A stretch of DNA of 22,816 nucleotides, from the IMG/VR virus record IMGVR_UViG_3300006076_000029, positions 1 to 22,816 of that record; one strand, given 5' to 3'. This stretch comes from a virus. Of the stretch, positions 2 through 18,335 are shown piece after piece; position 1 is the first letter of the stretch, and every line of letters begins with the position of its first letter. The notes beneath the pieces were generated by a model. The model was not told where the DNA came from. It saw only the letters and a list, made by a program, of their open reading frames with translations, and ran no database searches. The position numbers were made by a program, and so were the translations under genes.

Positions 2-181
2 GGACAAGAAGCATTTGAAGCAGGAATTGTAAAAGCTGAATGGATGCCATTGTTCTTAACTGAAACATTTGGTGGAACAGATCATAATCCTCTTAGAGCG
101 CAGAAAGCCGTAGCTACAGCATTTGGAATTGCAACTCCAATTCCAGGAATGATTACAAAAATCGTTCTTCAAAACCTTTAA
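2..181 (+). CDS. Probable major capsid protein, C-terminal 59 residues (5' end outside window)
   Basis: An open frame enters from the left edge and ends at TAA 179-181. The visible residues include EWMPLFLTETFGGTD, then the hydrophobic end FGIATPIPGMITKIVLQNL. I do not recognise a diagnostic motif. The call rests on position: it is the last gene before a strong-looking terminator and lies directly upstream of head and neck genes, where contractile-tailed phages usually keep the major capsid gene. A terminator right behind it also suits a highly expressed, separately controlled gene. It could instead be another abundant head protein. The start and most of the protein lie outside the window, so length cannot be compared with known capsid families. 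Confidence 0.5.
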   Translation, partial: GQEAFEAGIVKAEWMPLFLTETFGGTDHNPLRAQKAVATAFGIATPIPGMITKIVLQNL

Positions 182-2995: not shown

Positions 2996-3006
2996 AAGGA
3001 TTTAAT

Positions 3007-3144
3007 ATGGCAAGAAAAAAAGTTAAAAAAATTAAAGTAAAAGTAGTTAGGCCTGTCGTTTATAAAAATAAATTTTATAAAATAGATGAAGAGTTAGAAA
3101 TATCAGAAAAAGATTTCAATGAAAGAATTTTTAAGAAAATTTAA
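3007..3144 (+). CDS. Very small basic protein (45 residues), unknown
   Basis: The ATG at 3007 follows AAAAGGAT and the TAA is at 3142-3144. The protein opens with a lysine-rich strand (MARKKVKKIKVKVVRPVVY), then reads KNKFYKIDEELEISEKDF and ends in ERIFKKI. The second part looks like the short beta hairpin plus helix seen in small phage head and MuF-adjacent proteins, where a value like 'Y-x-G/N-K-x-Y-x-x-x-x-x-L-x-I' recurs; that resemblance is weak. It fills a gap that would otherwise be 176 bases without a gene inside a tightly packed operon, with correct spacing to its ribosome-binding site. Confidence 0.65.
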   Translation: MARKKVKKIKVKVVRPVVYKNKFYKIDEELEISEKDFNERIFKKI

Positions 3145-3171
3145 AGGATAGAATAAAATTAAGGCAATATA

Positions 3172-3752: not shown

Positions 3753-4550
3753 ATGATAAGTAAAATACATAATTCATTAGTTTCTTTAATAACAAATACA
3801 TTCGAAAATTATGGAGTAAAATTACAGGCTCAATATAATTCAGATATTGATATGATAAAACAATATATAAATTCTTTAAATTTAAGATATATGTATAAAG
3901 ATAGCACATTACCAGGTTTAACTGATGATGATTTAATAAAACTTAATAAAAAATCATATAATTTATTGCTTTATAAATTTGGTCCTTTTAAAAAATCTGA
4001 AAGAGGGCAAAATTTTAAAAATCTTGCTTTACTTTTTGACCCAAATACAACTGGAACTGATTTTGTAAAGAATAATGTAACAGATCCAGATTTTTATCAA
4101 TTTATTTCTTTTATTAGAGAAGTTAATCAACAAGATTTTGTTGTAAGAGATGGATTTTTTGGTCAAGCAGAATATGAATTTACAATTATGTCGTCAAACA
4201 CAGAATTAATGAATCATATTCAATTTATTTATTTATCACAATTATCAAATATTAATAAATTGTCTCTTACATTAGAAACACCTATTGAACCACTTGAATT
4301 AGAATATTTTTTAGAATTTGATGAAATTTCAGAATTTGGACATATTGATTATGAAAGATATGGAAATTTACAACATTTATCATTTAGTTGTAGACTTGAG
4401 GGATTAGTATTAAGTAATTATAAATATATAGAACCTAAATTAAATAAAATAGATCTAGGTTTGGATGTAATTAATAAAAATGAAACAGATGCTAAATTTG
4501 TTCAAGATGGAATAGAAAAATTCCATAATGATAATGAAGAAACAATTTAA
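3753..4550 (+). CDS. Probable neck / tail terminator protein
   Basis: The protein has 265 residues with good AGGAG spacing to the ATG. A conserved-looking middle (residues about 125-210) carries REVNQQDFVVRDGFFGQAEY, EFTIMSSNTELMNHIQFIYL and LSLTLETPIEPLELEYFLEF. A strand-helix-strand order in which a helix near 'N-T-E-L-M' is followed by long strands is what I would expect of a terminator or sheath-capping protein of myophages. The neighbour after a 61-residue gene is the tail sheath, where terminators commonly lie. The specific role (neck versus terminator) cannot be settled from the sequence alone. Confidence 0.45.
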   Translation: MISKIHNSLVSLITNTFENYGVKLQAQYNSDIDMIKQYINSLNLRYMYKDSTLPGLTDDDLIKLNKKSYNLLLYKFGPFKKSERGQNFKNLALLFDPNTTGTDFVKNNVTDPDFYQFISFIREVNQQDFVVRDGFFGQAEYEFTIMSSNTELMNHIQFIYLSQLSNINKLSLTLETPIEPLELEYFLEFDEISEFGHIDYERYGNLQHLSFSCRLEGLVLSNYKYIEPKLNKIDLGLDVINKNETDAKFVQDGIEKFHNDNEETI

Positions 4551-4762: not shown

Positions 4763-7339
4763 ATGGGATATGGTGAAGTAATTATAAAAGTACAAGACAG
4801 ATCAACAGTTATACCTTCATTACCTGGTATGTATGGAGGAATTGTTTTAAGAACTAAAAAAGGTAAAGTAAATCATCCAGTTTTAATTACAAGTGAAGAT
4901 GAATTAATTGACACATTTGGTGAACCTATTGTTAAGTATCCAGAAATTTATTCCGCTTTAACATTTTTATCAGAAAGTAATAAATTATGGGCTGTTAGAG
5001 CAGCAGCTGATGATATCAAATATAGTGCAGCGCTTGTTAGAGGGAAAATAAAACCTGTAGATACAAGTAATCCATTAGCTCAATTTGATGATGAAAGTTT
5101 AATTGTTAAACCATTAAAAGGTTTAACAGAAGAAGATCTTGAAAGTTATGTATTTCCAACATATATAGGAAATAGATTATATGAATACGAAAATATAAAT
5201 ATTGCTTATGATAGTACTGGAAATAAAATTCCTGTTGATAATTTTGGTGATTTAGCTGTTAATGATAAAATTAGTTTAATCAAAACAACAGACCCCAATG
5301 GAACATTAACTCAATTAAATGATGATACAACAACATATGGTGAAAGTCAAGCGTTATATACAGTAACAGATTTAGTAACAGAAAATAATACATATGAAAA
5401 AATTACATTAGCAGACGCTGTAACAGTTAGCAGAGGTGATGAAATTCTCAAAAAAGATTCATCTGGTAATTATGTTTCATATCCAACTCCAGTAATTGTT
5501 GCATTTAATGCAAGTAATAGTACAGAAGTAATTGTTTATAATGCAGATTATATGGAACCAGGTGATAGTGTTCAAGCCGGTGGAACTGATACAACATTCA
5601 ATAAAAAAGATACTATAACAATTAAAGAAAATTTTGTTGAAATTGATAAAGATGTTACTTATGGACCTGATTATAAAATTTTTAAAATGACACAAAGTGA
5701 ATATGAAGAAAGAGATAGTTTCTTAGTAATTGAAGAAAGTCCAGGAGCTTGGGGTAATAAAATTAGTATAGGAATTGCTCCAAGTAAAAATTATGAAAAT
5801 GCATTCAATATTTTAGTATATTATGATGGTGTTCTTGTTGAAACTTGGGAAGTAACAAAAGAAGACTTTGTTGATGGTTATGGTAATCAAATGTATCTAG
5901 AAGATAAAATTAATGGAAAATCTAAATATATTAGAGTAATTGACAATAAAGGATATGATGCTAATCCACTTTATACAGACCATAGCTATTGGCAAAGATT
6001 AAAAGAACCTGTATATAGAAGCACAGGACTTACATTAGCAGAAAATTTATTACAAGGAAATACACAAGTTTATTTAAGTGGTGTAACAGGATTGAATGTT
6101 GGAGATAGAATTAAATTTGCTTATGATGTTGATGCTGAAGGAAATGTAATTCTTTCTAAAGAATATAAAGTTCAAAGCATTAATACAACTAATAATTATA
6201 TTATTATTGATAGACCACTTGAAGAATATGAAATTCCTAAAACATATACTGACTTAAATGGTAATAGTGTAAATACAGAAGTTAGAAAATTTGATTCAAC
6301 ATATAATGATTCAACAGCAGGAATTTTAAATGGTTATCAATATTATCCTATAGTAGAACTTGATAAAGTATTTTATAATTATCCTTTAGGTAAAATTATT
6401 ACAATAGGTGATTATCAAGGTGTATTACTTGATGCTGGTGTAAATCTATTAGGTGGCGGAGATAATGGAAGTGAGCCAAGTCTTGCAGATATGATTGAAG
6501 CGCTTGATACATTGAAAAATAGAGATAATACACCTATTCAATTGTTAATGGATGGTGGATATACAAATCCAGCTTATGCACAAGAATTGTATGAAGTTGC
6601 AAAAGCTCAAGATTTATGTCATGTTTATTTATCAGTTGACCCTAATGCAGAAATGAGTGCTGATTATAAAAATGCAGTAGTTGATTATATAAATAAATTA
6701 AATCTTGATACTGAAAAAGCAAGCGTATATGTAAGTTGGCTTAAAGTATTTGATAAATATAATAAAAAATATGTATGGGTTGCTCCAAGTGCATTCGCAG
6801 CAGCAAGTCAATCATATACATTTAGAAATTATTATGTATGGTATCCAGCAGCAGGTCTTGCAAGAGGTAAAGTAGTTGCACTTGATAGTCATATTAAACC
6901 AGATCAAGGAACAATAGATTGGTTTATTGAAAATAGAATTAATAGTATTAAATATATTAAAGGAACAGGATTTGTAATTTGGGGTAATAGAACATTATAT
7001 AGTAAACCAAGTCCATTACAAAGTAGAAATGTTGCAATGTTGTTAATTTATATTAAATATGGACTTTATAATATGTTACCATATAAATTATTTGACTTAA
7101 ACACAGATTTTGTTTGGGAAGTTACTCAAAAAGCAATAGAAGATTTCTTAAAAGATATTCAAGCTAAAAATGGATTATATGACTTTAAAGTAGCAATTAA
7201 AGATATTATTACTGATGTAGATATTCAAAATAGAAGAATGCCTATTTATATAGGTATTATACCTGTTGAAGGAATTGAAGAAATTCCTGTTACATTAGCA
7301 GTATATGCTTATGGTAATGAAATTCAAGTAGCACTATAA
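4763..7339 (+). CDS. Contractile tail sheath protein (T4 gp18-like)
   Basis: This 858-residue protein is the outer contractile layer of the tail. The N-terminal domain shows SLPGMYGGIV (19-28), an 'F-G-E-P' segment near 52 and LWAVRAAADD (75-84), as in sheath subunits that report on neighbouring rings. The C-terminal domain carries GTGFVIWGNRTLYSKPSPLQ (about 735 on), then a 'SRNVAMLL' helix and the terminal strand block IGIIPVEGIEEIPVTLAV, the region that interlocks subunits in this family. It is longer than T4 gp18, and the extra length lies in the middle (about 100-560, rich in T, N, D and Y), which suggests surface-exposed inserted domains. It is followed after 11 bases by the tail tube gene, the canonical pair. 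Confidence 0.92.
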   Translation: MGYGEVIIKVQDRSTVIPSLPGMYGGIVLRTKKGKVNHPVLITSEDELIDTFGEPIVKYPEIYSALTFLSESNKLWAVRAAADDIKYSAALVRGKIKPVDTSNPLAQFDDESLIVKPLKGLTEEDLESYVFPTYIGNRLYEYENINIAYDSTGNKIPVDNFGDLAVNDKISLIKTTDPNGTLTQLNDDTTTYGESQALYTVTDLVTENNTYEKITLADAVTVSRGDEILKKDSSGNYVSYPTPVIVAFNASNSTEVIVYNADYMEPGDSVQAGGTDTTFNKKDTITIKENFVEIDKDVTYGPDYKIFKMTQSEYEERDSFLVIEESPGAWGNKISIGIAPSKNYENAFNILVYYDGVLVETWEVTKEDFVDGYGNQMYLEDKINGKSKYIRVIDNKGYDANPLYTDHSYWQRLKEPVYRSTGLTLAENLLQGNTQVYLSGVTGLNVGDRIKFAYDVDAEGNVILSKEYKVQSINTTNNYIIIDRPLEEYEIPKTYTDLNGNSVNTEVRKFDSTYNDSTAGILNGYQYYPIVELDKVFYNYPLGKIITIGDYQGVLLDAGVNLLGGGDNGSEPSLADMIEALDTLKNRDNTPIQLLMDGGYTNPAYAQELYEVAKAQDLCHVYLSVDPNAEMSADYKNAVVDYINKLNLDTEKASVYVSWLKVFDKYNKKYVWVAPSAFAAASQSYTFRNYYVWYPAAGLARGKVVALDSHIKPDQGTIDWFIENRINSIKYIKGTGFVIWGNRTLYSKPSPLQSRNVAMLLIYIKYGLYNMLPYKLFDLNTDFVWEVTQKAIEDFLKDIQAKNGLYDFKVAIKDIITDVDIQNRRMPIYIGIIPVEGIEEIPVTLAVYAYGNEIQVAL

Positions 7340-7350
7340 GGAGATGAGAT

Positions 7351-7896
7351 ATGAAATTTGGATACGATAAAGTAAAAGGAGCTGTTACAGCTCCTCAAAA
7401 TACATTACATTGGATGATGACATTTACAAGTCCACCAGCAGGATTGAATTTTGGTGAAAATATGAGTATTTTATGTGATACAGCAACAACTCCTAATCCA
7501 GAAGTTGAACATTTACAAATTCAATTGCAAGGTCAAACATTAAATTTTCCAGGGAGAATAAATAGAAGTGGAACTATAACATTAACATTTATTCAACCAG
7601 AGAAAGACCAAGAAGCTATTGATTTAATTTATCAGTGGTTGAATATTTATTGGGAAAATGCAGGTCAGATGCAAGGTAATACATTAAAAGCTCCAAAAGA
7701 ATTATATGCCACTGTAAAATTATCACTTTATGATGCAACAGGACAAGTAGAAACAAGAGCTTTTGAATTAATTGATTGTTTACCACAATTAGAAAATGGA
7801 GCTGAATTAGGACAAGAAGCAGCAGCAATGAAGCCTCAACTTACATTAACTTATAATAATTTCCATTATTATGTAAAAGGGAAAAAAGTCTTCTAA
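7351..7896 (+). CDS. Tail tube protein (T4 gp19-like)
   Basis: The 181-residue product forms the inner tube through which DNA leaves. Size and features fit the tube family: an N-terminal segment with WMMTFTSPPA, a strand block HLQIQLQGQTLNFPGRINRS followed by GTITLTF (about 54-80), a helix with EAIDLIYQWLNIYWEN and a final strand LTLTYNNFHYYVKG. The gene directly follows the sheath with an AAGGAG site. Codons 9-15 form a GC-rich hairpin, and the 3' end runs into a homopyrimidine mirror repeat; both are unusual for this AT-rich DNA and may relate to expression of an abundant protein. Confidence 0.9.
   Translation: MKFGYDKVKGAVTAPQNTLHWMMTFTSPPAGLNFGENMSILCDTATTPNPEVEHLQIQLQGQTLNFPGRINRSGTITLTFIQPEKDQEAIDLIYQWLNIYWENAGQMQGNTLKAPKELYATVKLSLYDATGQVETRAFELIDCLPQLENGAELGQEAAAMKPQLTLTYNNFHYYVKGKKVF
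7377..7395 (+). other. GC-rich hairpin inside the start of the tube gene
   Basis: AGGAGCTG (7377-7384) pairs perfectly with CAGCTCCT (7388-7395) around a TTA loop. It begins 27 bases after the start codon. The 3' arm CTCCT could alternatively pair with the real ribosome-binding site AGGAG at 7339-7343, while the 5' arm is itself an AGGAG decoy. Role unknown. Confidence 0.5.
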
Positions 7897-7919: not shown

Positions 7920-8015
7920 AAAAATTCTCCTATAAAATCCTCTAAATTAATACTCCTAATTAAATAATTAAAAATCTATTGTTAAGTTAAAATGTAAAAT
8001 CATAAGCAAAATATG

Positions 8016-8044
8016 CCTCTAAAAACCTCTAAGAAGCTCTCTAA
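8016..8044 (+). repeat. 29-base inverted repeat, left copy (partner at 17912-17940)
   Basis: The copy begins CCTCTAAAAACCTCT and ends AAGCTCTCTAA. The segment at 17912-17940 is its reverse complement with one mismatch (A versus T at the 16th base). The two copies flank the tape-measure and hub gene blocks in opposite orientation. The last part of each copy doubles as one arm of the local dyad element. Confidence 0.75.
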
Positions 8045-8113
8045 TGAACGATTTTAATTTTTGATATATAAATATATTAGAATAAAAGATTGTTTAATAG
8101 AGAGCTTGTTAGA
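8028..8113 (+). promoter_or_regulatory. Intergenic dyad element 1
   Basis: The arms at 8028-8043 and 8098-8113 are reverse complements over 16 bases with one mismatch; the inner ten (AAGCTCTCTA and TAGAGAGCTT) are perfect. The 54-base interior holds an AT-rich core (8058-8085) that includes GATATATAAATATATT and thus a TATAAATA box at 8067-8074. The leader that follows (GATATTAAATAT, 8112-8123) recurs before the gene at 13231. Function is inferred to be a promoter, operator or RNA processing site between transcription units. Confidence 0.55.
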
Positions 8114-8134
8114 TATTAAATATAAAGGATTTTT

Positions 8135-8653
8135 ATGATAGGATATGAAAAAGTTTCTCCAAAAAGTTTTATAGCTGGAGATACAGCAAGATGGTATTCA
8201 AAATTTGACGATATAAAATTCAATATATTAGGAGGATATGCTCCTATAATCGATTGGAATTTTGAATATGGTATTATAAATAAACAATTTCAAATCTCTC
8301 CATTACAAAAAGAATTTAGTGTTCCTATAACAAAAAAGAATGTAACTCATCTTTCAGTGACCATTGTTGATAACGATAGTAAAGATTTTTTATATGCTTT
8401 ATTAAAATGGATACATGATTTACCTATAAGTAAAAATAAAGCAATTGACCTTAAAAATTTAGAAAAATATGCTAAAGAATTTTATATATTTGTAGAAAAT
8501 AAAAAAGGAATTGTTCAATATTATTATAGATTTAAACTATTACCAGGAGATAGTTTAACAGATAATGGGACATCTGATTTTCAAGCTAAAACATATCCTT
8601 ATACTTTCAATGTTATTGGTTTTGAAGTAATATTTCCACAAAAACAAGAATAA
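8135..8653 (+). CDS. Tube-like or baseplate protein, tentative
   Basis: The 172-residue product is strand-rich: GGYAPIIDWNFEYGII, FQISPLQKEFSVPITKK, THLSVTIVDN, then a helix DFLYALLKWIHDL, and a C-terminal strand TYPYTFNVIGFEVIFPQ. A first sheet of strands, one central helix and a closing strand is the layout of tube-fold proteins, and the gene lies between the tube and the tape measure. It might be a second tube-type protein acting at the tail end or baseplate. No family motif confirms this. It is the first gene after dyad element 1 and has the AAAGGAT leader shared with the gene at 13231, so it likely heads an operon. Confidence 0.45.
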   Translation: MIGYEKVSPKSFIAGDTARWYSKFDDIKFNILGGYAPIIDWNFEYGIINKQFQISPLQKEFSVPITKKNVTHLSVTIVDNDSKDFLYALLKWIHDLPISKNKAIDLKNLEKYAKEFYIFVENKKGIVQYYYRFKLLPGDSLTDNGTSDFQAKTYPYTFNVIGFEVIFPQKQE

Positions 8654-8662
8654 GGAGTTAAA

Positions 8663-9559
8663 ATGAAAAAATTTGTAATGTTAAGATCAGATATTCTTGA
8701 AGATGATATTAGATATTTAGAATTAGATGAATTACCAAGTGAATTTAGATTTTATGATAAAAATAGAGTATATGTTAGGGGACTTAATCTTTTAGAAATT
8801 GAAGCATTAAGTCAATATACAGATATTGATATTAATAAAGATATTAATCAATTAGTAACTATTTATAAAGATGTAATTAAAGGAATAGATATATATGATT
8901 TAGAATTTATTGATTTTTTAATGCTTGTTGCTATAAGTTCAGTTTTGACAACTAATTCAATGAATTGGGAAACAGAATTAACATGTATTAATTTGGTGCC
9001 TAATACAGAAAAAGATAAAATAGATAATGAAATTAAAGAATTAAAGAATAAATTAAGAGAACTTACAAAAGAAGAAGAAATTGAAGAAATTCAAAATAAA
9101 ATTATAGAATTAGAAGAAAAGAAAAAAGAATTAGATGATTATGTTGAATGTGGTAATATTTTACCACCTATAACATTAGAAGATTTTGAATTTAAAGAAC
9201 CAAAGCAAAAAGATTATATTATAAAAGATAATTATAAATTTGGTCCTGTATTTATAAAAGATTTAGTTGAATTTCAGCAATTTGATGTAAAAAAATATTT
9301 TCCAAATATTTTTAAATTAAAACCAGATTTTGATAAAGAGTATTTATTACCTATCCTTTATTTAAAAGAAGTTAATGGAAAAACAGATATTATTTCAAAA
9401 ATTAAAGAAGTTCTAATAAATCCTAATTTATTAATTGAATTAAAAAATATGGAAAATATATTTGAAATAGAGCAAGAACCTATTATTAAAATTTGTGATA
9501 AATGTGGATATGAAAATAAAATTTATATAGGTTTACAAAATATTAAGGTATATCCCTAG
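8663..9559 (+). CDS. gp26/gp51-like tail assembly (baseplate hub) chaperone, unshifted form
   Basis: The 298-residue protein opens with LPSEFRFYDKNRVYVRGLNL followed by EIEALSQY, the 'P-S-x-G/F...Y, I/V-Y-V-R-x-L/M-x-x-x-E...L-S' opening I associate with the T4 gp26/gp51 hub-assembly family. A coiled-coil insert of E, K and I lies at about 114-155. Near the end is a CxxC motif (C278, C281, in CDKCGYENK) followed by IYIGLQ, also typical of that family, where the cysteines may bind zinc. The stop TAG is preceded by CCC in a likely +1 frameshift site, giving a longer form to 9686. Such genes normally precede the tape measure gene, as here. Confidence 0.65.
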   Translation: MKKFVMLRSDILEDDIRYLELDELPSEFRFYDKNRVYVRGLNLLEIEALSQYTDIDINKDINQLVTIYKDVIKGIDIYDLEFIDFLMLVAISSVLTTNSMNWETELTCINLVPNTEKDKIDNEIKELKNKLRELTKEEEIEEIQNKIIELEEKKKELDDYVECGNILPPITLEDFEFKEPKQKDYIIKDNYKFGPVFIKDLVEFQQFDVKKYFPNIFKLKPDFDKEYLLPILYLKEVNGKTDIISKIKEVLINPNLLIELKNMENIFEIEQEPIIKICDKCGYENKIYIGLQNIKVYP

Positions 9560-9686
9560 TTTAACATTTGAAGAATATATAAAAATGAAAAGTATTTATT
9601 TAAAATTATATCATTCTTACCCACCTTATAATATGAGTTATAGAGAATTTATTGATTTATTAAAAGAGCTTGAAAAGGAAGATTAA
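8663..9686 (+). CDS. Frameshifted (+1) long form of the tail assembly chaperone
   Basis: After CCC (9554-9556) the zero frame stops at TAG. Reading CCT (9555-9557) in the +1 frame gives 42 more residues, SLTFEEYIKMKSIYLKLYHS and then YPPYNMSYREFIDLLKELEK with a final ED, ending at TAA 9684-9686. The extension has ordinary protein composition and the same codon use as neighbours. The +1 frame is closed just upstream (stop at 9528-9530) and its only internal ATG (9585) lacks a ribosome-binding site, so it is most simply reached by frameshifting. Tail chaperone genes commonly make a minor shifted product (lambda G and GT), usually by -1; a +1 shift at CCC-stop is known from Listeria phage PSA. 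Confidence 0.6.
9545..9559 (+). promoter_or_regulatory. Candidate +1 frameshift site (AAGG, CCC, TAG)
   Basis: A ribosome-binding-like AAGG (9545-9548) lies five bases before CCC (9554-9556), and UAG occupies the next codon. This is the same set of parts as the prfB frameshift: an internal Shine-Dalgarno sequence, a P-site codon that can re-pair one base downstream (CCC to CCU) and a slowly read stop codon. Confidence 0.6.
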
Positions 9687-9704
9687 TGATTTAAAGGATT
9701 TTAA

Positions 9705-12434
9705 ATGAATCAAAACGAAAAAAGTATTGAAAATATACAAATTAATAAAGAAGTTCTAGAGCAATTAGAAAAAATTCCTTTTGAAATTCATAATTTATAT
9801 AAAATAATTCAGAATAGAGATACTGATTTAGACTATGAGCTAAAAATAGTAAATAAAGTTCTAACATCAAAAAAAGATATAGGTCAATTAAAAGAATTTG
9901 ATTATTTATCAAAAAAATATAATATTAAGACGCTTAAAGAAATTCAAGAATTAAAAAATGAATTAAGCAAAATTAAATTTGAAAAACAAAGTTTATATAC
10001 AGAAATAAAAAATACAGAATTACAAAAAGGAACGAAAAAAGTTCTTTTAGATATAGCAGATAAAATTTCAACAAAATCAGACCTTGAATTAGTTAAGCCA
10101 TTATTAAAAGAATATCATGCTGATACTGAAGCTATGATTAAATTATATTCAGGTATTAAAAATGAAATTAAAAATTTAGATATGAATATTATTCAAAAAG
10201 GAAAATTATTTGCAAGATTAAATGAAGTGCTTGAAGAATTTAATAAAAAAGGACAACTTGATTTAGATTTAGTTACAAAAATAAATGAATTAGCAAGCAA
10301 ATTTAATAATAATGAAATTCAAAAAATTATAAATGAGTCATTTAAAGGTGAGTATAATAAAACTTTAATGGAAAATTTATCAAAAGTTATAACAGAAAAA
10401 TCAAGAGAATATAATTTTGAAAATACACAAGCATATCAAAAATTTTTATTAGGAAAAAGTGATTATAAAACATTTATTAATAATTTGAAAGACGAATTAA
10501 AAGATGTTTATGATTCAGAAAAGATAAATAAAATATTAACTGACATAGATGTTTCAATTAAAGAAGAATTAAATCAAGATAAAATAATTTCTAAATTAAT
10601 AAATGATTTAGTTAATATTTCAGATAGTTCTAAAAAAGATCTAGCGAACTTATTAGAAAGTTATAAACAAGGACAAATAACTCAAGGAGAATTTAATTTA
10701 CAACTTGAAAAAATAGCAAAAGATAATGATATAAAAACAGAGGAATTGCAAAAATCAATAGAGCCTTTATTAGAAAATATAGATGAATCAAATGCAGAAA
10801 AAATAAAAGAACAAAGAAGATTTGAATTAATAACAGAAGCAGCAAAAAAATTAACTGATATAACAGGAAAAGCAAAAATCGATATAGATAAAAAAGATAA
10901 GGAAAATATTTTAAAATCATCCCAAAATGTTGAAGATTTAACATATAATTTAACAAGCAAGTTTCTTGATAAGATATTTGGAAAAGGAACAATTGTAGAA
11001 AAAATATTTGATAAAATAACAGATAAAGTATTTAAAAAAGTTGGTGGAAAAATTTTTAGAAAATTAGAAGGTACAATTGTAGGAAAAATAGTTAGAAATC
11101 TTGAAGGAAGTATAGCTAAAAAAATTGGTGGAAGATTATTAGGTAGATTAGGAGCAACATTTTTAGGGGAAGAAGGCGGTTCATTATTAGGAGGTTTATT
11201 AGGCGGTGGAGCATTAACTGCAGAAACAGCAGCTGGTGCAACGGCCGCAGAAACAGCAGCAGCCGCAGGGGGATTGTCATCTTTAGGAAGTGGTCTTGCA
11301 GCAGCAGGTTCATTTTTAGTTACAAATCCTATTGGGTGGGCTATTTTAGGTGCAGCAGCAATAGGTGGAGCAAGTTATTATGCTTATAAAAAAATATACG
11401 GAAAAGATAAAGAGCTTATTAATAAACTTGAAAAAGAAGGCGCTTATGAATATCATTTTTTTGGAAAATCAAAAATCAAAGATTGGTCAAAAATACTTGA
11501 ATTAGATAATAAAGATTTAAAGCATTTAATTCATTTTGGCGATTTAGATGATAAACAATATAAAATGTTACAAAAATTAATAGAAATACCTGAAGACTTA
11601 AGAAAAGCTATTTCATATGAGATGATTTTAAATGAAGCACAAGTAACAGATAAAGGAATACATATTTCAAGTAAAGGACTACAAGACCTTGTTGGTAGAT
11701 TTGGAATTCCTAAAAAAGAATTAAAATCATTATTAGATGTAGTAGATCCATATACAAAGAAAAAATTACTTGAAAAAGCAAAATCAAATCCAGAACTTAA
11801 AAAAGCAATAGAAGAACAAGAAAAGAAAGATAAAAAATATAAAAAGTGGGATAAAGAATCAAAAAAAGAACATAGTGGTATCAGTGAATTTTTAAAAAGA
11901 ACATCAAATTCATTTATTACTCCATTAGGAACTATTGCTAATGCTATCAAAGTCGGTGAATCAATGTTCGGTGGAGATGAGTATCAATTAATAGATACAT
12001 TAGAAAAGATGGGAGCTGTTAAACATTATATTTTTGGAGATTCAGAAATAACTGACTGGAAAAAAATTGCAGCATTACCTGCTGAAGATATTAAAAAATT
12101 AATTGAATTTGATGATTGGGATAAAGATACATTAAAAAAATTAAAAGCATTATATCAAGAAAAAATAAATATTAAAAAGAAACATGAAAAAATTGAACTT
12201 GCTAAAAAATATTTAGCAAATAATATGAAACCTGAGCTTGTAGCACAAACAGTTCATTTACCATTGAGTGAAGTTAAAAAATTACAACAAACAAATAGTA
12301 TAGCATATATTCCTAAAGTTAAATCATCAAAAGATGAAAAAGAACAAAAACAAGAAATTAATTATCAAGATCATACCACTATTATTTATCAGCATACAGA
12401 AAATAAAACAACAAAAATAGCAAGTTTATATTAA
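9705..12434 (+). CDS. Tape measure protein
   Basis: This 909-residue protein should set tail length. Residues 1 to about 420 are charged, helical and coiled-coil-like, rich in K, E, L and N. Residues about 460-566 are Gly/Ala-rich and hydrophobic, with GGSLLGGLLGGGAL, TAAETAAAAGGLSSLGSGLA and the membrane-like NPIGWAILGAAAIGG; such segments are common in tape measures that cross the host envelope. A module of about 60 residues occurs twice (from 568 and from 758), each with a 'L-I-x-x-L-E-K-x-G-A-x-x-x-x-F-G-x-S-x-I-x-D-W-x-K-I' pattern. It is the longest gene here and follows the chaperone pair, as in other tailed phages. At about 1.5 angstrom per helical residue it would predict a tail of roughly 130-140 nm. 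Confidence 0.82.
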   Translation: MNQNEKSIENIQINKEVLEQLEKIPFEIHNLYKIIQNRDTDLDYELKIVNKVLTSKKDIGQLKEFDYLSKKYNIKTLKEIQELKNELSKIKFEKQSLYTEIKNTELQKGTKKVLLDIADKISTKSDLELVKPLLKEYHADTEAMIKLYSGIKNEIKNLDMNIIQKGKLFARLNEVLEEFNKKGQLDLDLVTKINELASKFNNNEIQKIINESFKGEYNKTLMENLSKVITEKSREYNFENTQAYQKFLLGKSDYKTFINNLKDELKDVYDSEKINKILTDIDVSIKEELNQDKIISKLINDLVNISDSSKKDLANLLESYKQGQITQGEFNLQLEKIAKDNDIKTEELQKSIEPLLENIDESNAEKIKEQRRFELITEAAKKLTDITGKAKIDIDKKDKENILKSSQNVEDLTYNLTSKFLDKIFGKGTIVEKIFDKITDKVFKKVGGKIFRKLEGTIVGKIVRNLEGSIAKKIGGRLLGRLGATFLGEEGGSLLGGLLGGGALTAETAAGATAAETAAAAGGLSSLGSGLAAAGSFLVTNPIGWAILGAAAIGGASYYAYKKIYGKDKELINKLEKEGAYEYHFFGKSKIKDWSKILELDNKDLKHLIHFGDLDDKQYKMLQKLIEIPEDLRKAISYEMILNEAQVTDKGIHISSKGLQDLVGRFGIPKKELKSLLDVVDPYTKKKLLEKAKSNPELKKAIEEQEKKDKKYKKWDKESKKEHSGISEFLKRTSNSFITPLGTIANAIKVGESMFGGDEYQLIDTLEKMGAVKHYIFGDSEITDWKKIAALPAEDIKKLIEFDDWDKDTLKKLKALYQEKINIKKKHEKIELAKKYLANNMKPELVAQTVHLPLSEVKKLQQTNSIAYIPKVKSSKDEKEQKQEINYQDHTTIIYQHTENKTTKIASLY

Positions 12435-12457
12435 AGTTATTTTCAAAGGAATAAAAT

Positions 12458-13108
12458 ATGAATTATTTTAATGATGCTTTAGAATTAAAAGATTTTACAG
12501 TTGTAATACAAGCTCATCATGCAGGAGTGAGTCTTTCAGGTATTATTGATCAAGAAACTATTAATATACCTTTTGGTGCTTCTTTATCTGGAAGTCTTGC
12601 AGCACAAGCTAAAGAAGGATTTTTAAGAGGAACTGGAAAAGCAATTATGAATAAATTATTTGGTAATTTAGGTAAAAATGCTGTTGATGTTGTTGAAACA
12701 ATGGGTAGTTCTATTAAGACATATCAAAATGGAGCAGATTTAGAATTATCTTTTAGTTGTAGTATATTTCCAGGAGAAAATGGAAATCCAAAAGATTATA
12801 AAGAAATAATACATCAATTATCTAAATTAACTCAACCATATGTAAAAAAGAATATATTATATTCATCATTATATGATCCTAAAGAAACATCATTATTTTT
12901 AAAAGATTATAAAGTTTTTGATAACGAATTAATCTGTATAAGAATAGGCGATTGGTTTAGTAAATGTGGATTATTTTGTACAAGTGCATCAACTGAATTA
13001 TCAACAATAAGAACTGAAGATAATCAACCTTTATATATAAAAGTAAATTTCAGATTTGTTCCATATAGAATGCAAACACCCGATGATGTTAAAAAAATGT
13101 TTAAATGA
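12458..13108 (+). CDS. Baseplate tube-cap / tube-initiator protein (gp48/gp54-like)
   Basis: The 216-residue product has a glycine- and serine-rich helical middle (LSGSLAAQAKEGFLRGTGKA, MNKLFGNLGK). Its C-terminal sheet carries ICIRIGDWFSKCGLFCTSAS (159-178), then a 'P-L-Y-I-K-V-N-F-R-F' strand (191-200) and RMQTPDDVKKMF. A G-D/N-W-F motif, a segment contacting the tube, and the closing 'T-P-D-D-V-K-K-M-F' agree with the gp48/gp54-like proteins that join baseplate hub to tube. It is the last gene of its block; its stop codon overlaps a hairpin and dyad element 2 follows. Confidence 0.6.
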   Translation: MNYFNDALELKDFTVVIQAHHAGVSLSGIIDQETINIPFGASLSGSLAAQAKEGFLRGTGKAIMNKLFGNLGKNAVDVVETMGSSIKTYQNGADLELSFSCSIFPGENGNPKDYKEIIHQLSKLTQPYVKKNILYSSLYDPKETSLFLKDYKVFDNELICIRIGDWFSKCGLFCTSASTELSTIRTEDNQPLYIKVNFRFVPYRMQTPDDVKKMFK

Positions 13109-13124
13109 CGCCTTTAAAGGTGTC
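13107..13124 (+). terminator. Hairpin overlapping the stop codon, possible terminator
   Basis: GACGCCTTT (13107-13115) folds onto AAAGGTGTC (13116-13124) with one G-U pair; as an RNA the middle bases would form the loop. It overlaps the TGA at 13106-13108. No clear T-tract follows, so termination would be weak or factor-dependent. A similar GGTGTCTA ending is seen after the PAAR gene. Confidence 0.4.
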
Positions 13125-13129
13125 TAAAA

Positions 13130-13201
13130 GAACATATAACACAAGATAAATTATTTCAAATATATTTATATATCTAAAAACAAATCTTGTGTTATTTGTT
13201 C
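13130..13201 (+). promoter_or_regulatory. Intergenic dyad element 2
   Basis: The arms GAACATATAACACAAGAT (13130-13147) and ATCTTGTGTTATTTGTTC (13184-13201) are reverse complements with one mismatch. The interior core (13151-13180), read on the minus strand, nearly equals the core of dyad element 1 (GATATATAAATATATT), while the arm sequences are unrelated. The leader GATATTAAATAT (13207-13218) and AAGGATTTT match those after element 1. Confidence 0.55.
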
Positions 13202-13230
13202 GCTTTGATATTAAATATGAAGGATTTTAA

Positions 13231-13539
13231 ATGGTCGATAAAAAATTATTTGAATTTGAAAATTATTTTCCGTATAAAGATGGTGTTTATGATATTTTAG
13301 GAAATGATTTTATAAAAAAATTGCAAGCACTTCCAGTTGATGATACATATAAATATAATAATGAAGATTTAGATTATGTTGCTTGGAAAGTATATGGAAT
13401 TGAAGACGCTTATTGGATTATAGGATTTTATAATAATATCATAGATCCATATAATATTTCTAATCAAACAGATATATTATATATTCCAGCTTTAGAAGAT
13501 GTTATTGATTTGCTTTTAGAGTATCAACAAGGAAATTAA
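13231..13539 (+). CDS. Baseplate wedge protein (gp53-like)
   Basis: The 102-residue protein has DLDYVAWKVYGIEDAYWIIG (47-66), FYNNIIDPYNISNQTDILYI (67-86) and a final helix. A 'L-A-x-K-x-Y-G, W-x-x-x-x-N-N-I-x-D-P, L-x-I-P' series is the LysM-like core of gp53-type wedge proteins and small tail proteins that grip the hub. Length agrees with a core-only version of that family, shorter than T4 gp53. The start has AAGGATTTT. It opens the hub operon after dyad element 2. Confidence 0.72.
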   Translation: MVDKKLFEFENYFPYKDGVYDILGNDFIKKLQALPVDDTYKYNNEDLDYVAWKVYGIEDAYWIIGFYNNIIDPYNISNQTDILYIPALEDVIDLLLEYQQGN

Positions 13540-13548
13540 GGATAATAA

Positions 13549-14568
13549 ATGAAAATAAATGACATTTATTTAAAAATAGAAGAAATTGAAATTAATCCTT
13601 TGACATTTAAAGAATTTACTATAACAGAAGAAACATTTTTTATTCCAACATTTGAATTAAAAATTTTACAAAAAGATTATAGTTTATTAGAAAAATTAAA
13701 ACCATTTTATGAATTAAATATAACTTTTGGAAAAAATTTGAATCTAAAAAAATATAAATTTATTGTTTTAGATTATAATTACTCGTCATTTAAAAAAGAA
13801 GGATTAGAATTAACAATATCAGGTTTATTAAAATTAAATGATTTTATGTTTAATCCTTATCAAAATGCAAAAGAATGTAATTTAAGCGAATTTATAAAAA
13901 ATTTTAAATATTATGATATATATTATATAGATGATTCAAATGATAAAATGAAATGGCTTCAACCAAATATAACAGAAAAACAATTTTTTGAAATTTCTAT
14001 ACCTTTTATAGGATATGATTCATTTCCCGTGCAAGCATATACATTAGATGGAATTATTGTAAAAGATTATTCAAAACATATAAATAATTATGATTATAAA
14101 TTTTCACCAACTAAAAAAGATGATACTTATTATTATGATTATTTTGAAATAAATTTTGATAATTCATTTATATTGAATGATAATTTAAAATTACCTATTC
14201 TTGATATAAAAAGTCAAAAATATAGTAATTATTATATTAATTATAAGAATAATTCGTTCTTAGAGAAAAATAGAAATTTAAGAAGCATTGTTAATATGAG
14301 AAATGTTTATGATAAATATTATAAAAATTATGTAAAAAATATAGCAGGTTGGAATGAGCTTTATAGAAATAATATAACTATTGCTTATAGTAATTATTAT
14401 TTGAATGATATACGATTATTAGATATTGTCCAACTTTTTACAACTGATAACAAATATCAAAATTTTTCTAAAAAGAATTATATTATAACTAGAAAAGAAC
14501 TTTATTTTAGTAATGAAGGATATAAAACAACATTAAGGTTAAACAGAAATTCTTTTGAACAAGGATAA
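13549..14568 (+). CDS. Baseplate hub protein (gp27 / gpD-like)
   Basis: The 339-residue product is strand-rich throughout. The first third has a tube-domain pattern (FIPTFELKILQKDYSLLEKL, YKFIVLDYNY, LELTISGLLKLNDF). The end carries LLDIVQLFTTDN, KKNYIITRKELYFSNEGYKT and TLRLNRNSF, the typical close of hub proteins in the VgrG/gp27/gpD group, where the last strand completes the second tube domain. A gp5-type OB-fold gene follows after three bases, matching the gp27-gp5 pairing that forms the central hub. The middle is rich in Y, N, D and K and has no recognisable motif. Confidence 0.7.
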   Translation: MKINDIYLKIEEIEINPLTFKEFTITEETFFIPTFELKILQKDYSLLEKLKPFYELNITFGKNLNLKKYKFIVLDYNYSSFKKEGLELTISGLLKLNDFMFNPYQNAKECNLSEFIKNFKYYDIYYIDDSNDKMKWLQPNITEKQFFEISIPFIGYDSFPVQAYTLDGIIVKDYSKHINNYDYKFSPTKKDDTYYYDYFEINFDNSFILNDNLKLPILDIKSQKYSNYYINYKNNSFLEKNRNLRSIVNMRNVYDKYYKNYVKNIAGWNELYRNNITIAYSNYYLNDIRLLDIVQLFTTDNKYQNFSKKNYIITRKELYFSNEGYKTTLRLNRNSFEQG

Positions 14569-14571
14569 TAT

Positions 14572-14868
14572 ATGCTTAAATTAGATGATTTGAAAGATTT
14601 TTTCGAAGGAGATTTTATAGGAGAAGTTGTTGATAATTCTGATCCAGAGAATCTTTTTAGAGTCAAAGTAAAAATTGATAATTTAACTGATAAAATACCA
14701 ACAGAATTATTACCATGGTATCTTGTTAGGCAACCCATAGAAAATACATACAATACACAAGGTAATGTACCAAATGTTGGTTCTAAGGTTTGGGTTAGGT
14801 TTCCTTATAAAGATATTTATAATGGTATAGTCGTTGGTGAAATTACTTGGCATCCACCTGAAATGTAA
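14572..14868 (+). CDS. gp5 N-terminal OB-fold protein (hub)
   Basis: The 98-residue product matches the OB-fold of gp5 and VgrG: FIGEVVDNSDPENLFRVKVK, then LPWYLVRQP, a central VGSKVWVRFPY and the closing GIVVGEITWHPPE. In T4 gp5 this domain is followed in the same chain by a lysozyme domain and a triple-stranded spike. Here the protein ends after the OB-fold; the spike is a separate gene 1.9 kb downstream and no lysozyme domain was seen in either. It follows the hub gene after three bases with AAGGAT. The OB-fold should bind the hub trimer and place the spike. Confidence 0.78.
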   Translation: MLKLDDLKDFFEGDFIGEVVDNSDPENLFRVKVKIDNLTDKIPTELLPWYLVRQPIENTYNTQGNVPNVGSKVWVRFPYKDIYNGIVVGEITWHPPEM

Positions 14869-14889
14869 AAATGCAAAAAAGGATAAATT

Positions 14890-16758
14890 ATGGCACTTTC
14901 TATATTGAATAATTATTTTTATTATGGAGATAATATTTATCATATAAATGAAAAAAATTTACCTCCATTAATTAAAGCATTAATTGATTATTATAATGAC
15001 CAAAGTTCTGATAATTATAATGAAATACTAAATAATTTAAGTGATTTTGAAAATTCTTACAATTTTGATAAAAATTTACTTTATCAATTAATCATTGAAG
15101 ATAAGGCTTATAATCCAAATCTTTCATTACTTGAAGAGTTCTATGAATATTATGAAAATATGTTATCATTGTATAATTTTCAACAAAAAATAGAAAATCT
15201 TGAAAAAATAGCAGAATTAGCACATGAAGGCCAAAATATAGAAAATTTGCAAACTTGTGAAGAATATGCGTTTGCTCAAAAAATTTGTAATTATACAGGT
15301 GATGATGAAACATTGAAAAAACTTTGGCAGAATGCTAAAGAAACAGGAGATTTTTCAATTCTTATACAATATTACATAAATCAAGAATTAATGCAATATA
15401 ATCAACTTCTTCAAAATTATTTCAATTCTAAATATACTTATGTATTAGACTTACTTTCTTATGTTGATGAAACAAATTATAAATTGAAGCCAGAATATAA
15501 AAGTTATCAAGTTCTTAAACAATTTGAAAAAAATATTGATTTTAATTATCTAACTAATATATTAATAAATTCTAAGCAAAATATAAAAACTAATTTAGTT
15601 GATTTAAATAATGAAACAATTCAAGAAACAGTTAATAATATAAATGAAAGTACAAGCGCTATAATTTTATTGAATAATTTATATAAACATGATATTTCAG
15701 GTTCTATTGAAGATTTAAACGAAATGGACGAAATCAATAATGATATTGAATATATTAATAGTATGAAAGCTAAATTAACTCCTATTCAAACAAAATTAGA
15801 AAACAATAAAGATTTGACAGATAGTGATATTAATACATTAAAAGAATTAAGCTCAGATAGTACTTTAACAAGTTTGTCAAATAAAATAATTTCATTACAA
15901 AATAATATAAAAACAAAAAATGAAAATATTTTATATTTACAAAGTTCATTTTATAATAAAATTGTTTTTGGCGGATTGTTTTTAACACAAGTAAAAAATT
16001 TATCTGAAAGATATAGTAATATTAGTTCATCAATAGAAAATAAATTAAATGATATTTATAATTATATTACTGATAATGATGTAATTCAACAGATAAAAGA
16101 TGTATTATTAGTAGCAGGTGGTATTTATACATTATTAAATGTTATCAATGACCCAAGGGGTGTTATTAAATCATTAATAAATTTATTAGTAACTCCACTT
16201 GAAGCAATTATGGGTGCATTAGATGTGTTAATTTGTTCAATAAAAGAATTATTATGTAAAGTTGTTTCTCTTGTAAAAACACTTGGCAATTTTGTAACTT
16301 TTATTGGAAATATTATAACAAAATTTAGTCAAACAGCAGCAGAAAAAATAGATAATTTTGTATCAAGTTGGAAATCAGATAAATCATCAGAAATGAATAC
16401 AAATTATTATAATTTAGTTACAGGATATCAGTCTGCTTTAACAAGAGAATTGAGTCAAAGTGTGGCAAATATACTTGGTAATGATAAAGCAAATGATTTT
16501 TATCAAGCAAGCATGTCTGTATTTGAAAATTGTTTCCAAGAAGATACATTATTAAATTATGTTACTGATTATATTGACCAAGTTGGTGATAATCTTAAAG
16601 AAAGTGCTGAAAATGTAATTAATAATATTTTAAGTTTAAGAAATACATTCAGTGAATGTAAAGGTAAAACATTTAATTTACCTAATATTAATTTTTCGAG
16701 TTCATCTCTTAAATTTAATATACCTTATATTAGTTCAGCACATATTAGATGTTATTAA
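14890..16758 (+). CDS. Large unknown protein between OB-fold and spike genes
   Basis: I do not recognise this 622-residue protein. Residues 1 to about 380 are helical, acidic and coiled-coil-like (for instance NFQQKIENLEKIAELAHEG). At about 396-487 is a long hydrophobic part, with IKDVLLVAGGIYTLLNVI, SLINLLVTPLEAIMGALDVL and LGNFVTFIGNIITKF, which could be two or three membrane or amphipathic helices. The last 130 residues are polar and end in SAHIRCY. No lysozyme or peptidase motif is visible. Being sandwiched between hub components suggests a hub or tail-tip protein; a pore-forming or ejected protein is possible but inferred. It could also be a chaperone or second tape-measure-like protein. 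Confidence 0.75.
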   Translation: MALSILNNYFYYGDNIYHINEKNLPPLIKALIDYYNDQSSDNYNEILNNLSDFENSYNFDKNLLYQLIIEDKAYNPNLSLLEEFYEYYENMLSLYNFQQKIENLEKIAELAHEGQNIENLQTCEEYAFAQKICNYTGDDETLKKLWQNAKETGDFSILIQYYINQELMQYNQLLQNYFNSKYTYVLDLLSYVDETNYKLKPEYKSYQVLKQFEKNIDFNYLTNILINSKQNIKTNLVDLNNETIQETVNNINESTSAIILLNNLYKHDISGSIEDLNEMDEINNDIEYINSMKAKLTPIQTKLENNKDLTDSDINTLKELSSDSTLTSLSNKIISLQNNIKTKNENILYLQSSFYNKIVFGGLFLTQVKNLSERYSNISSSIENKLNDIYNYITDNDVIQQIKDVLLVAGGIYTLLNVINDPRGVIKSLINLLVTPLEAIMGALDVLICSIKELLCKVVSLVKTLGNFVTFIGNIITKFSQTAAEKIDNFVSSWKSDKSSEMNTNYYNLVTGYQSALTRELSQSVANILGNDKANDFYQASMSVFENCFQEDTLLNYVTDYIDQVGDNLKESAENVINNILSLRNTFSECKGKTFNLPNINFSSSSLKFNIPYISSAHIRCY

Positions 16759-16785
16759 GTGATTAAATGTTATTAGGAGAATGAA

Positions 16786-17538
16786 ATGAATGTAAGTGAT
16801 TTAGCTCAAAATTTAACTTGTTCAAGCGATGATATCAAACAAGCAATAATAGATAAATTAAAAAATGATTATGGTTGGACAGATAGTGATCTTAACCAAG
16901 TAGATACTCAACTTAGTCAAGTAAGTGAAACTGTTTTAAATCCTGTAAGTGATATTCCTACAAAATATTCAAATGAATTACAATCACAACTTGATATTCA
17001 AAATAATATATTACAAACAACTGGTCAAAATGTAATACAAAATCAAGTCGAAAAAGCAAAACAAGAAGAATTAGAGCAAGACCAAATGAAAAACGAAGGA
17101 ATTACATTTTATGGTCCTAAAGAAGTTATGAAATATAATGAACCCGTTGTTTCTGGTCTTGTAACAAATCCAGTTGACCTTGAAGATGCTCATTATACAT
17201 TAAAAGAAGATTATCCGAACAGTTATGGATTTATAGATAAAGTTAAAAATTGGTATAGAATTAATATGGCAAAACAAAAAGCAGAATTTGTTCATAGCAG
17301 TGGAACTCAGATAAAAATTGATAAAAATGGAAATGTTACAATTTGGGTGACAGGTAATTTAAAACAAGTTATTGAAGGTGATTATACATTAAAAGTAAAA
17401 GGAAATGCAGACTTTATAATAAATGGATTAAGGACCGATAGTACTGGTGCTAATCATAATATTATTAGTGGTGGACCACAAATAAGAATGAGTGGAGTAT
17501 TAATAGATGATAAAGCTCCTAAAATTTCACATAACTAA
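16786..17538 (+). CDS. Central spike protein (gp5 C-terminal-like)
   Basis: The 250-residue product has an N-terminal helical part (1 to about 110, rich in Q, D and N, with repeated 'L-S-Q-V'). A beta-rich C-terminal part follows from about 165: HSSGTQIKIDKNGNVTIWVT, GNLKQVIEGDYTLKVKGNAD and then FIINGLRTD. This 'V-T/K-G-N...V-I-x-G-D-Y' rhythm is that of the gp5 C-terminal triple-stranded helix and VgrG tips. It precedes the PAAR gene, which should cap it. Two other nearby ATGs (16781, 16790) lead to immediate stops or the wrong frame; the one used has AGGAGA. Confidence 0.68.
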   Translation: MNVSDLAQNLTCSSDDIKQAIIDKLKNDYGWTDSDLNQVDTQLSQVSETVLNPVSDIPTKYSNELQSQLDIQNNILQTTGQNVIQNQVEKAKQEELEQDQMKNEGITFYGPKEVMKYNEPVVSGLVTNPVDLEDAHYTLKEDYPNSYGFIDKVKNWYRINMAKQKAEFVHSSGTQIKIDKNGNVTIWVTGNLKQVIEGDYTLKVKGNADFIINGLRTDSTGANHNIISGGPQIRMSGVLIDDKAPKISHN

Positions 17539-17547
17539 GGATTGATA

Positions 17548-17826
17548 ATGCTACCAGCTCATAGATTAGGAGATTGCGATAGTGGTCACGATTGCTTTCC
17601 TCCACAAGTTCTTGTTACAGCAAGCATAAATACAAAAGCTAATGGAAAAGGAATAGGAAGAATAGGAGATATTTATTCTTCACATTGTTGTAAATCTTGT
17701 CATTCTGGCAATGTTGCAACAGGATCAATTGGAGTTTTTATAAATGGAAGAAATGCAGCACATATAGGAAGTCTTGTAAGTTGCGGAGGTGTTGCTGTTT
17801 GTTGTAGTCCTAATGTAGATGTTTAA
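17548..17826 (+). CDS. PAAR-type spike tip protein (gp5.4-like)
   Basis: The 92-residue product begins MLPAHRLGDCDSGHD, a PAAR-like opening with His in place of the second Ala, then has glycine-rich turns (IGRIGDIYSSHCC, GSIGVFINGRNAAHIGSLVS) typical of the pointed PAAR cone. Eight cysteines and several histidines suit metal binding at the tip. I prefer the ATG at 17548: the AAGG at 17537-17540 is seven bases before it. The in-frame TTG at 17542 would add two residues but sits too close to the ribosome-binding site. It is the last gene of its block and a hairpin follows directly. Confidence 0.8.
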   Translation: MLPAHRLGDCDSGHDCFPPQVLVTASINTKANGKGIGRIGDIYSSHCCKSCHSGNVATGSIGVFINGRNAAHIGSLVSCGGVAVCCSPNVDV

Positions 17827-17828
17827 AT

Positions 17829-17844
17829 ACACCTTATTTGGTGT
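17829..17844 (+). terminator. Short hairpin after the PAAR gene, possible terminator
   Basis: ACACC (17829-17833) pairs with GGTGT (17840-17844) around TTATTT, two bases after the stop codon. No T-tract follows. It ends in GGTGTCTA like the hairpin at 13107-13124, suggesting a shared type of boundary signal. Confidence 0.4.
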
Positions 17845-17849
17845 CTATT

Positions 17850-17922
17850 AAGCTCTCTATTAAATGATATTTTTTTGATATATATTTCTATATTAAAAAT
17901 AAGATCTTTGTTTAGAGAGCTT
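17850..17922 (+). promoter_or_regulatory. Intergenic dyad element 3
   Basis: The arms AAGCTCTCTA (17850-17859) and TAGAGAGCTT (17913-17922) are perfect reverse complements and identical to the inner arms of element 1, nearly 10 kb away. The interior core (17872-17902, TTTTTGATATAT to TATATTAAAAATAA) resembles that of element 1 with a three-base insertion. The element lies between two operons in the same way as elements 1 and 2. Confidence 0.55.
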
Positions 17923-17940: not shown

Positions 17941-17978
17941 TAAATTTTAAATTTAATTAAATATAATAAAGGATAAAT

Positions 17979-18335
17979 ATGAAAGAAGTTATCTTTTATA
18001 AAGATATAAATAATGAAGGTCAAAGAATTTATAATGAACAAGCACTTTTAAATTATATTGATAATATTTTATTTACAAAAGTTGGAACAAGACCATTTAA
18101 TAGAGCTTTTGGAAGTTTTTTAGAAAAATATTTATTTGATGTACCTTCAGAAACAACGATTTTGCAAATTAAGTTAGAAATTGAAAGAGCTATTTATAGA
18201 TGGCTCGACGATGTTGAAATAAGTGAAATAGATATAAATTATGATAGTAGAAAACTTTATATATTTGTTGGTATTTATTCAAAAAAATTAAAAAATACTA
18301 TTATTTATGAAAAGGAAATTGATTTAGTAAAATAG
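17979..18335 (+). CDS. Baseplate wedge protein gp25-like
   Basis: The 118-residue product has the gp25 / GpW-gp25 hallmark at residues 35-53, VGTRPFNRAFGSFLEKYLF, followed by a helix ILQIKLEIERAIYRWLDDV and a strand pair ISEIDINYDSRKLYIFVGIY. In contractile tails this protein starts sheath assembly at the baseplate and forms the wedge core with the gp6-type protein, which is the next gene. Length is close to that of T4 gp25. It is the first gene after dyad element 3. Confidence 0.88.
   Translation: MKEVIFYKDINNEGQRIYNEQALLNYIDNILFTKVGTRPFNRAFGSFLEKYLFDVPSETTILQIKLEIERAIYRWLDDVEISEIDINYDSRKLYIFVGIYSKKLKNTIIYEKEIDLVK

Follow-up and report, generated by a model that had tools for sequence, protein, structure and literature searches.

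Inverted copies of an intergenic dyad in the tail-gene block of a metagenomic phage as candidate RNA stem-loops at gene boundaries

Several systems of intergenic hairpins or palindromes have been described in phages and bacteria. The RNase III hairpins of T7 messages are long and intergenic, and the REPIN/MITE palindromes are dispersed intergenic repeats present in both orientations. Promoter early stem-loops (PeSLs) join a strong sigma-70-like promoter to a stem-loop acting as an effective transcription terminator, with several near-identical copies that mediate the shuffling of neighbouring genes; they were reportedly described in T4-type phages by Arbiol et al. in 2010 and by Comeau et al. 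in 2014. Here we compare with these systems three dyads, E1, E2 and E3, of a phage fragment that makes up the whole of the virus record IMGVR_UViG_3300006076_000029 (22,816 bases, hereafter the window; 24.5% G+C, with the main genes all on the + strand). E1 and E3 are inverted copies of each other, and we give about even credence to the dyads being mobile stem-loops that work at the RNA level, marking message ends or processing sites at gene boundaries and tolerating inversion.

The relation between E1 and E3 is the strongest non-coding repeat of the window (81% over 115 bp, E=7e-24). The arms AAGCTCTCTA/TAGAGAGCTT are exact in both, as the original prediction claimed, and its coordinates for the three dyads are also correct. 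E1, E2 and E3 occupy the three longest true intergenic gaps (238, 122 and 152 nucleotides (nt), respectively), and these gaps fold below their shuffled versions, with z values of -6.5, -4.3 and -3.3. The stem strength of E2 was matched in 0/200 dinucleotide shuffles, and the stem score of E1 (20) equals the top values reached among 200 such shuffles. The side with two arms (CCTCTAAAAACCTCT-AGAAGCTCTCTA) is found upstream in E1 and downstream in E3. Since the two copies are inverted among + strand genes, a signal that has to be read in a single orientation would be lost in either E1 or E3, whereas a hairpin survives the inversion. The elements and their surroundings are as follows:

8008-8122, - strand: whole stretch over which E1 matches E3 as an inverted repeat, one side with the half-repeats CCTCTAAAAACCTCTAAG
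8028-8113, - strand: E1 long dyad, between the tail-tube gene (7351-7896) and a tube-like gene (8135-8653); 36 pairs in the sense fold; inverted copy of E3
8112-8130, + strand: linker and ribosome site after E1, GATATTAAATATAAAGGAT
13107-13124, + strand: small hairpin 5' of E2, GACGCC-TTTAAA-GGTGTC, overlapping the stop codon and matching the small hairpin upstream of E3
13130-13201, no strand assigned: E2 dyad, flanked by genes 12458-13108 and 13231-13539; arms unrelated, AT-rich loop of 36 nt
13207-13225, + strand: linker and ribosome site after E2, GATATTAAATATGAAGGAT
17829-17844, + strand: small hairpin 5' of E3, ACACC-TTATTT-GGTGT, directly after the stop codon
17835-17948, + strand: whole stretch over which E3 matches E1 as an inverted repeat
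17850-17922, + strand: E3 dyad, arms as in E1, between the PAAR gene (17542-17826) and the gp25-like gene (17979-18335)
17957-17974, + strand: linker and ribosome site after E3, TTAAATATAATAAAGGAT

E2 appears tied loosely to the other two, through its AT-rich core and short flanks, and its arms show no homology to those of E1 on the present comparison. The arms pair at 17 of 18 positions and the core resembles that of E1 in reverse (87% over 30 nt, a score reached by 2/2000 loop shuffles), both as originally predicted. For the cores of E1 and E3, 3/2000 shuffles reach the score; these tests are biased towards likeness between any two AT-rich dyads, as shuffling destroys the dyads. The predicted leader GATATTAAATAT-AAGGAT is common to E1 and E2 ahead of the start codon, a likeness exceeded, among all gene pairs, only by that of genes 17979 and 18350. 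E2 and E3 have in common an upstream block of about 28 nt (GTTTAAAT plus the small hairpin; 0/2000 shuffles), which, like the inversion between E1 and E3, goes beyond the original prediction. Taken with the rest of our explanation, for which even confidence is claimed as a whole, E2 would be a remote or convergent member of the E1/E3 family.

Among named phages, Cobetia phage Carin-5 and the Yersinia phages GN1 and YerA41 come closest (sheath identity 45-47%, same gene order), and three metagenomic records are closer by sheath identity: G001 (L040) with 61%, L042 with 56% and G006 (L045) with 55%. These are the nearest found, and the collections may omit records very close to the window. A search for related loci with the tube protein alone found nothing, and the window has no Rfam match above the gathering score. 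As regards the dyads, G001 (109 kb) contains near-identical ones, with arms GAGCCTCTCTGG and an AT-rich core, which in our alignment A4 align with E1 and E3 along the whole element and have the 3' block in common. Among themselves, the copies in G001 show 80-100% likeness across as much as about 180 bp, promoter and ribosome site included, and those of the GAGCC type are all intergenic.

A sequence-only model was built from A4, that is, from the G001 copies and the W copies (those of the window, E1 and E3), and run on 38 sources and then on five whole records. At E 0.01 or better the run on whole records gave eight places in G001, six in G010, four in G011 and two each in G012 and G013; opposite-strand hits on the same dyad are excluded from this count, the two contig ends of G001 carry the same 126-nt copy, and for the W copies and five of the G001 type the match to the model is by construction. 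G013 represents the phage of G001 in a different sample (100% identity across 2.2 and 9.1 kb). A place at G010:31774 (E 4e-4) lies within an open reading frame (ORF), is probably due to chance and is not included among the good copies below; matches in YerA41 and GN1 (E 0.01) were discarded as chance-level. The homologous copies in these five records, with multi-copy families in G001, G010 and G011 as the nearest relatives found, confirm that intergenic dyads form a family in this phage group, and the original prediction is supported in this part.

Other searches gave less. With E1 as query, blastn in the phage collection returned weak hits only, the best E among the matches listed being about 0.03 and none covering >80% of the query. 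The arm pattern occurs in two stretches of viral_contigs, of which that in L009 looks coding by eye and was rejected. The other, at 8338-8443 of the siphovirus-like record L008, is a non-coding dyad with the window's arms, the 74-nt span of E1 and similar flank words; its model E of 3.8e-5 is biased, L008 having been picked by its arms. A longer arm word occurs in 28 stretches, with TTAGAGAG within 120 nt downstream in L008 only, and several of the others look coding by eye. Kinship with a cellular repeat was rejected, the single stretch with the arm pattern in genome_contigs having G+C-rich, unlike flanks and being taken as chance. The G001 dyad at 3871 has the loop length of E2 (36), a similar core and unrelated arms, a weak likeness reached by 20/500 shuffles. 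A separate family of paired dyads, with arms like GTTAACTTGTTGATTTTA, was seen at three places of G007 (the L046 record; 56431-56670, 97002-97236 and 153158-153396).

The placement of the copies in the relatives is narrow in range. Promoter-like sites, defined as TTTAC[AT]-15..18-TATAAT, number 33 in four contigs, a raw pattern count with no shuffle control. In G010 and G011, 7/13 of them have a hairpin 113-136 nt upstream, and eight of the nine good copies start no more than about 15 nt past a stop codon; the ninth overlaps an ORF end. In G001 the hairpin lies 27-31 nt downstream of 4/14 sites, ahead of the ribosome site, and upstream of 1/14, and in G013, the same phage, it is downstream at 2/6. 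The G010/G011 hairpin has the opposite orientation to that of G001 and stands between stop codon and promoter. The element next to corresponding genes of G001 and G011 is also in opposite orientations, and in the G010 twin of this G011 copy the promoter flanks the hairpin on the side opposite to that seen in G001. Judging by these switches of orientation and order, the cassette is mobile and invertible with respect to the promoter, and what persists is the dyad.

The relatives' cassettes resemble the PeSLs of T4-like phages, as far as the analogy goes, in that a strong sigma-70-like promoter and a stem-loop form a repeated intergenic cassette in G001, G010 and G011. PeSLs of T4-type phages are mentioned in passages of PMC4503421 and PMC5931544. 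The likeness is incomplete, because sister phages differ in the orientation of the element and in its order relative to the promoter, and because E1-E3 lie in a late structural region where pattern scans show no sigma-70-like promoter that stands out. As to the predicted promoters, the dyads of the relatives accompany such sites, and those of the window do not visibly do so. Furthermore, E1-E3 have no U-run, which makes a terminator function doubtful. As for copy number, there are several copies in the relatives and two in the window, with contig breaks at copies that possibly reflect assembly only. For want of such a promoter the window dyads are not classed as PeSLs, and the present evidence does not support calling them PeSLs, promoters or intrinsic terminators. 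No described stem-loop family of the YerA41 group was found in the literature searched, whose coverage is partial.

The copies themselves, their inversion, their homology with the families of the relatives and their positions are established, and from them we infer that the working part is the RNA hairpin, as well as its role and its way of spreading. E1 and E3, inverted with respect to each other, would both be copies of a dispersed stem-loop cassette which the phage clade copies between gene boundaries; the cassette carries a promoter in the sister phages and probably not in the window's late region. Once transcribed, the dyad would form a long hairpin, with a stop codon before it and a ribosome site after it, and an inverted copy could still work because a dyad folds in either orientation. 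Most likely the hairpin would mark message ends, by shielding a 3' end or a 5' leader or by being cut as double-stranded RNA, and one late transcript would be split into separately dosed blocks. In this it is similar to the T7 RNase III hairpins, which are also long and intergenic and could divide a transcript (here from predicted folds only), and differs from them in a far more AT-rich core and in a family that spreads by copying. We are doubtful about a further step, in which the dyad would be a portable, orientation-free RNA module copied to either message end (the stop-codon side or the promoter/leader side), with inversion turning a 3'-end signal into a 5' leader while the fold is kept, and with late-region copies shedding the promoter.

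The gap 3' of the tube gene, where E1 lies, contains a hairpin in 10/10 relatives with a readable gap, with sequences mostly unrelated. The fold has a z of -2.9 or lower in seven of them (L040, L045, L043, L047, YerA41, GN1 and Carin-5, of which YerA41 and GN1 are nearly identical and both counted); L044 and L046 have a classical stem plus T-run (z -1.9 and -1.2) and L042 a short hairpin (z -0.8). In the fold of the window, E1 is enclosed by pairing of AAAATCCT with the ribosome site AGGATTTT. After the tube gene of L040 and L045, the ribosome site of the next gene is buried in the hairpin, and in L047 a hairpin separates AAGGAG from an ATG. These hairpins may serve to dose the second tube-like protein at the level of translation, and a step-down of expression after the abundant tube protein may be the recurrent need at this site.

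Several results weigh against RNA stem-loops at gene boundaries. The sites of E2 and E3 are not conserved, with almost no gap in most relatives: a strong hairpin was seen at the E2 site only in L045 (z -5.9), and a short one at the E3 site only in YerA41/GN1 (YerA41 z -0.9). The G001 stretch that matches the window has no GAGCC-type copy. The family link of E2 depends on an AT-rich core, which is prone to chance likeness. The folds are better in the sense strand for E1 (-37.4 vs -18.6 kcal/mol) and E3 (-24.1 vs -19.7 kcal/mol) and worse for E2 (-19.2 vs -26.9 kcal/mol), so strand folding makes no clear case for RNA. Finally, covariation between E1 and E3 and across phages is nowhere clearly above controls. 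Of the 36 pairs of the E1 fold, 26 are the same in E3, one has a one-sided change, none a two-sided one and nine are broken. The count in A4 (seven rows, six of them distinct) covered two structures: the distal arm pairing, with 83% of cells paired and one two-sided pair (reached by 200/500 shuffles), and the proximal one, with 80% paired and one two-sided pair (289/500), its covariation score being reached by 27/500. Different half-repeats pair in W and in G001. By eye, the small hairpin beside one arm in the sister phages (14 copies) shows A-T to T-A and G-C to A-T changes and one broken copy. The proposal that arms changed while pairing was kept is thus weakly supported, and selection on pairing is possible though not shown by these counts.

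Among the alternatives, we regard as improbable, though the best placed of them, that the dyads are selfish miniature palindromic elements (MITE- or REPIN-like) inserting in gaps and functionless for the phage. The copies are palindromic, intergenic and dispersed in both orientations, corresponding places of G001 and G011 differ in orientation and order, and contigs break at identical copies. The G001 and L084 (G012) contigs both carry the same 126-nt cassette copy at start and end; assemblies of this phage thus break at the repeats, with putative recombination between copies, and the breaks can be an assembly effect only. Unlike a simple insertion, the likeness between copies takes in promoter and ribosome site, and the spacing to promoters and stop codons is narrow. 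In addition, a Y1 (TnpA-REP) transposase (PF01797), typical of REPIN/IS200-type elements, was found in 0/8 virus records searched, which may be fragments and whose host may hold a copy.

Factor-dependent or non-canonical transcription terminators are somewhat less probable still. A stem followed by T residues is found after the tube gene in L044 and L046 and, as strong intrinsic terminators, in YerA41, GN1 and Carin-5, at the same site as E1; their sequences are unrelated to E1, and they have the T-run that E1 lacks. The intrinsic arrangement of a G+C stem, a short loop and then a U-run is absent at E1-E3, no T-run follows any of them, and a terminator pattern scan finds none there, its loop limit of 3-8 nt excluding whole dyads. 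Moreover, the G001 hairpin separates the promoter from its gene, which an efficient terminator in that position would switch off. A terminator is considered unlikely because the T-run is missing and because this hairpin belongs to the leaders of genes that have strong promoter-like sites.

We see little chance that the dyads are DNA-level operators or late promoters, with a phage protein bound to the arms and phased half-repeats (CCTCTAA, in steps of about 10-11 bp) and melting of the AT core. Phased direct repeats do lie next to one arm in E1/E3 and G001, and TATAAATA-like words were seen by eye within the core. The E2 arms lack the repeats, AT-only words are expected often at the G+C content of the window, and its promoter-like matches (101 vs 87 in shuffles, standard deviation 9.5) are not clearly above chance. 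The predicted operators find no support. Three unrelated ordinary hairpins with AT-richness as the source of core likeness are very improbable given the E1/E3 match and the core shuffles, and possible for E2 alone, with its unrelated arms and similarity confined to core and flanks. The reading as RNA message-end or processing signals, with which the originally predicted RNA processing signals are compatible, is preferred because a terminator is unlikely, a promoter is unsupported in the window, no Y1 transposase was found and the copied unit of G001 includes promoter and ribosome site.

The tail block of the window also comprises a contractile sheath (4763-7339) ahead of the tube gene, a 909-aa gene at 9705-12434 labelled as tape measure from its position alone, and the PAAR tip and gp25-like wedge that flank E3. 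Two further gaps (176 and 145 nt) only seem to be empty. The first (2996-3171) contains a basic 45-codon ORF (3007-3144), with its own ribosome site and below the usual size cut-off. The second contains the frame-shifted end (9560-9687) of a chaperone-like gene: gene 8663-9559 ends in CCC TAG and its +1 frame is open for about 42 codons (9540-9690), before the gene at the tape-measure position. The same was seen in 9/9 relatives with a complete end (CCC TAG, CCC TAA or, in Carin-5, CCT TGA, plus an open +1 frame; L044 is cut off), which looks like a conserved programmed +1 frameshift of the tail assembly chaperone. At 210-241, a near-perfect 32-nt palindrome with ATAGATTTTGGCCAAAATCTAT at its centre follows a terminator-like hairpin, located where the gene truncated by the window start ends.

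Gene regulation in the YerA41 group and its AT-rich metagenomic kin is little described in the literature examined. A dispersed stem-loop family with narrow spacing to promoters and stop codons would provide a concrete map of message boundaries in these phages, and would extend promoter/stem-loop cassettes beyond the T4-like phages.

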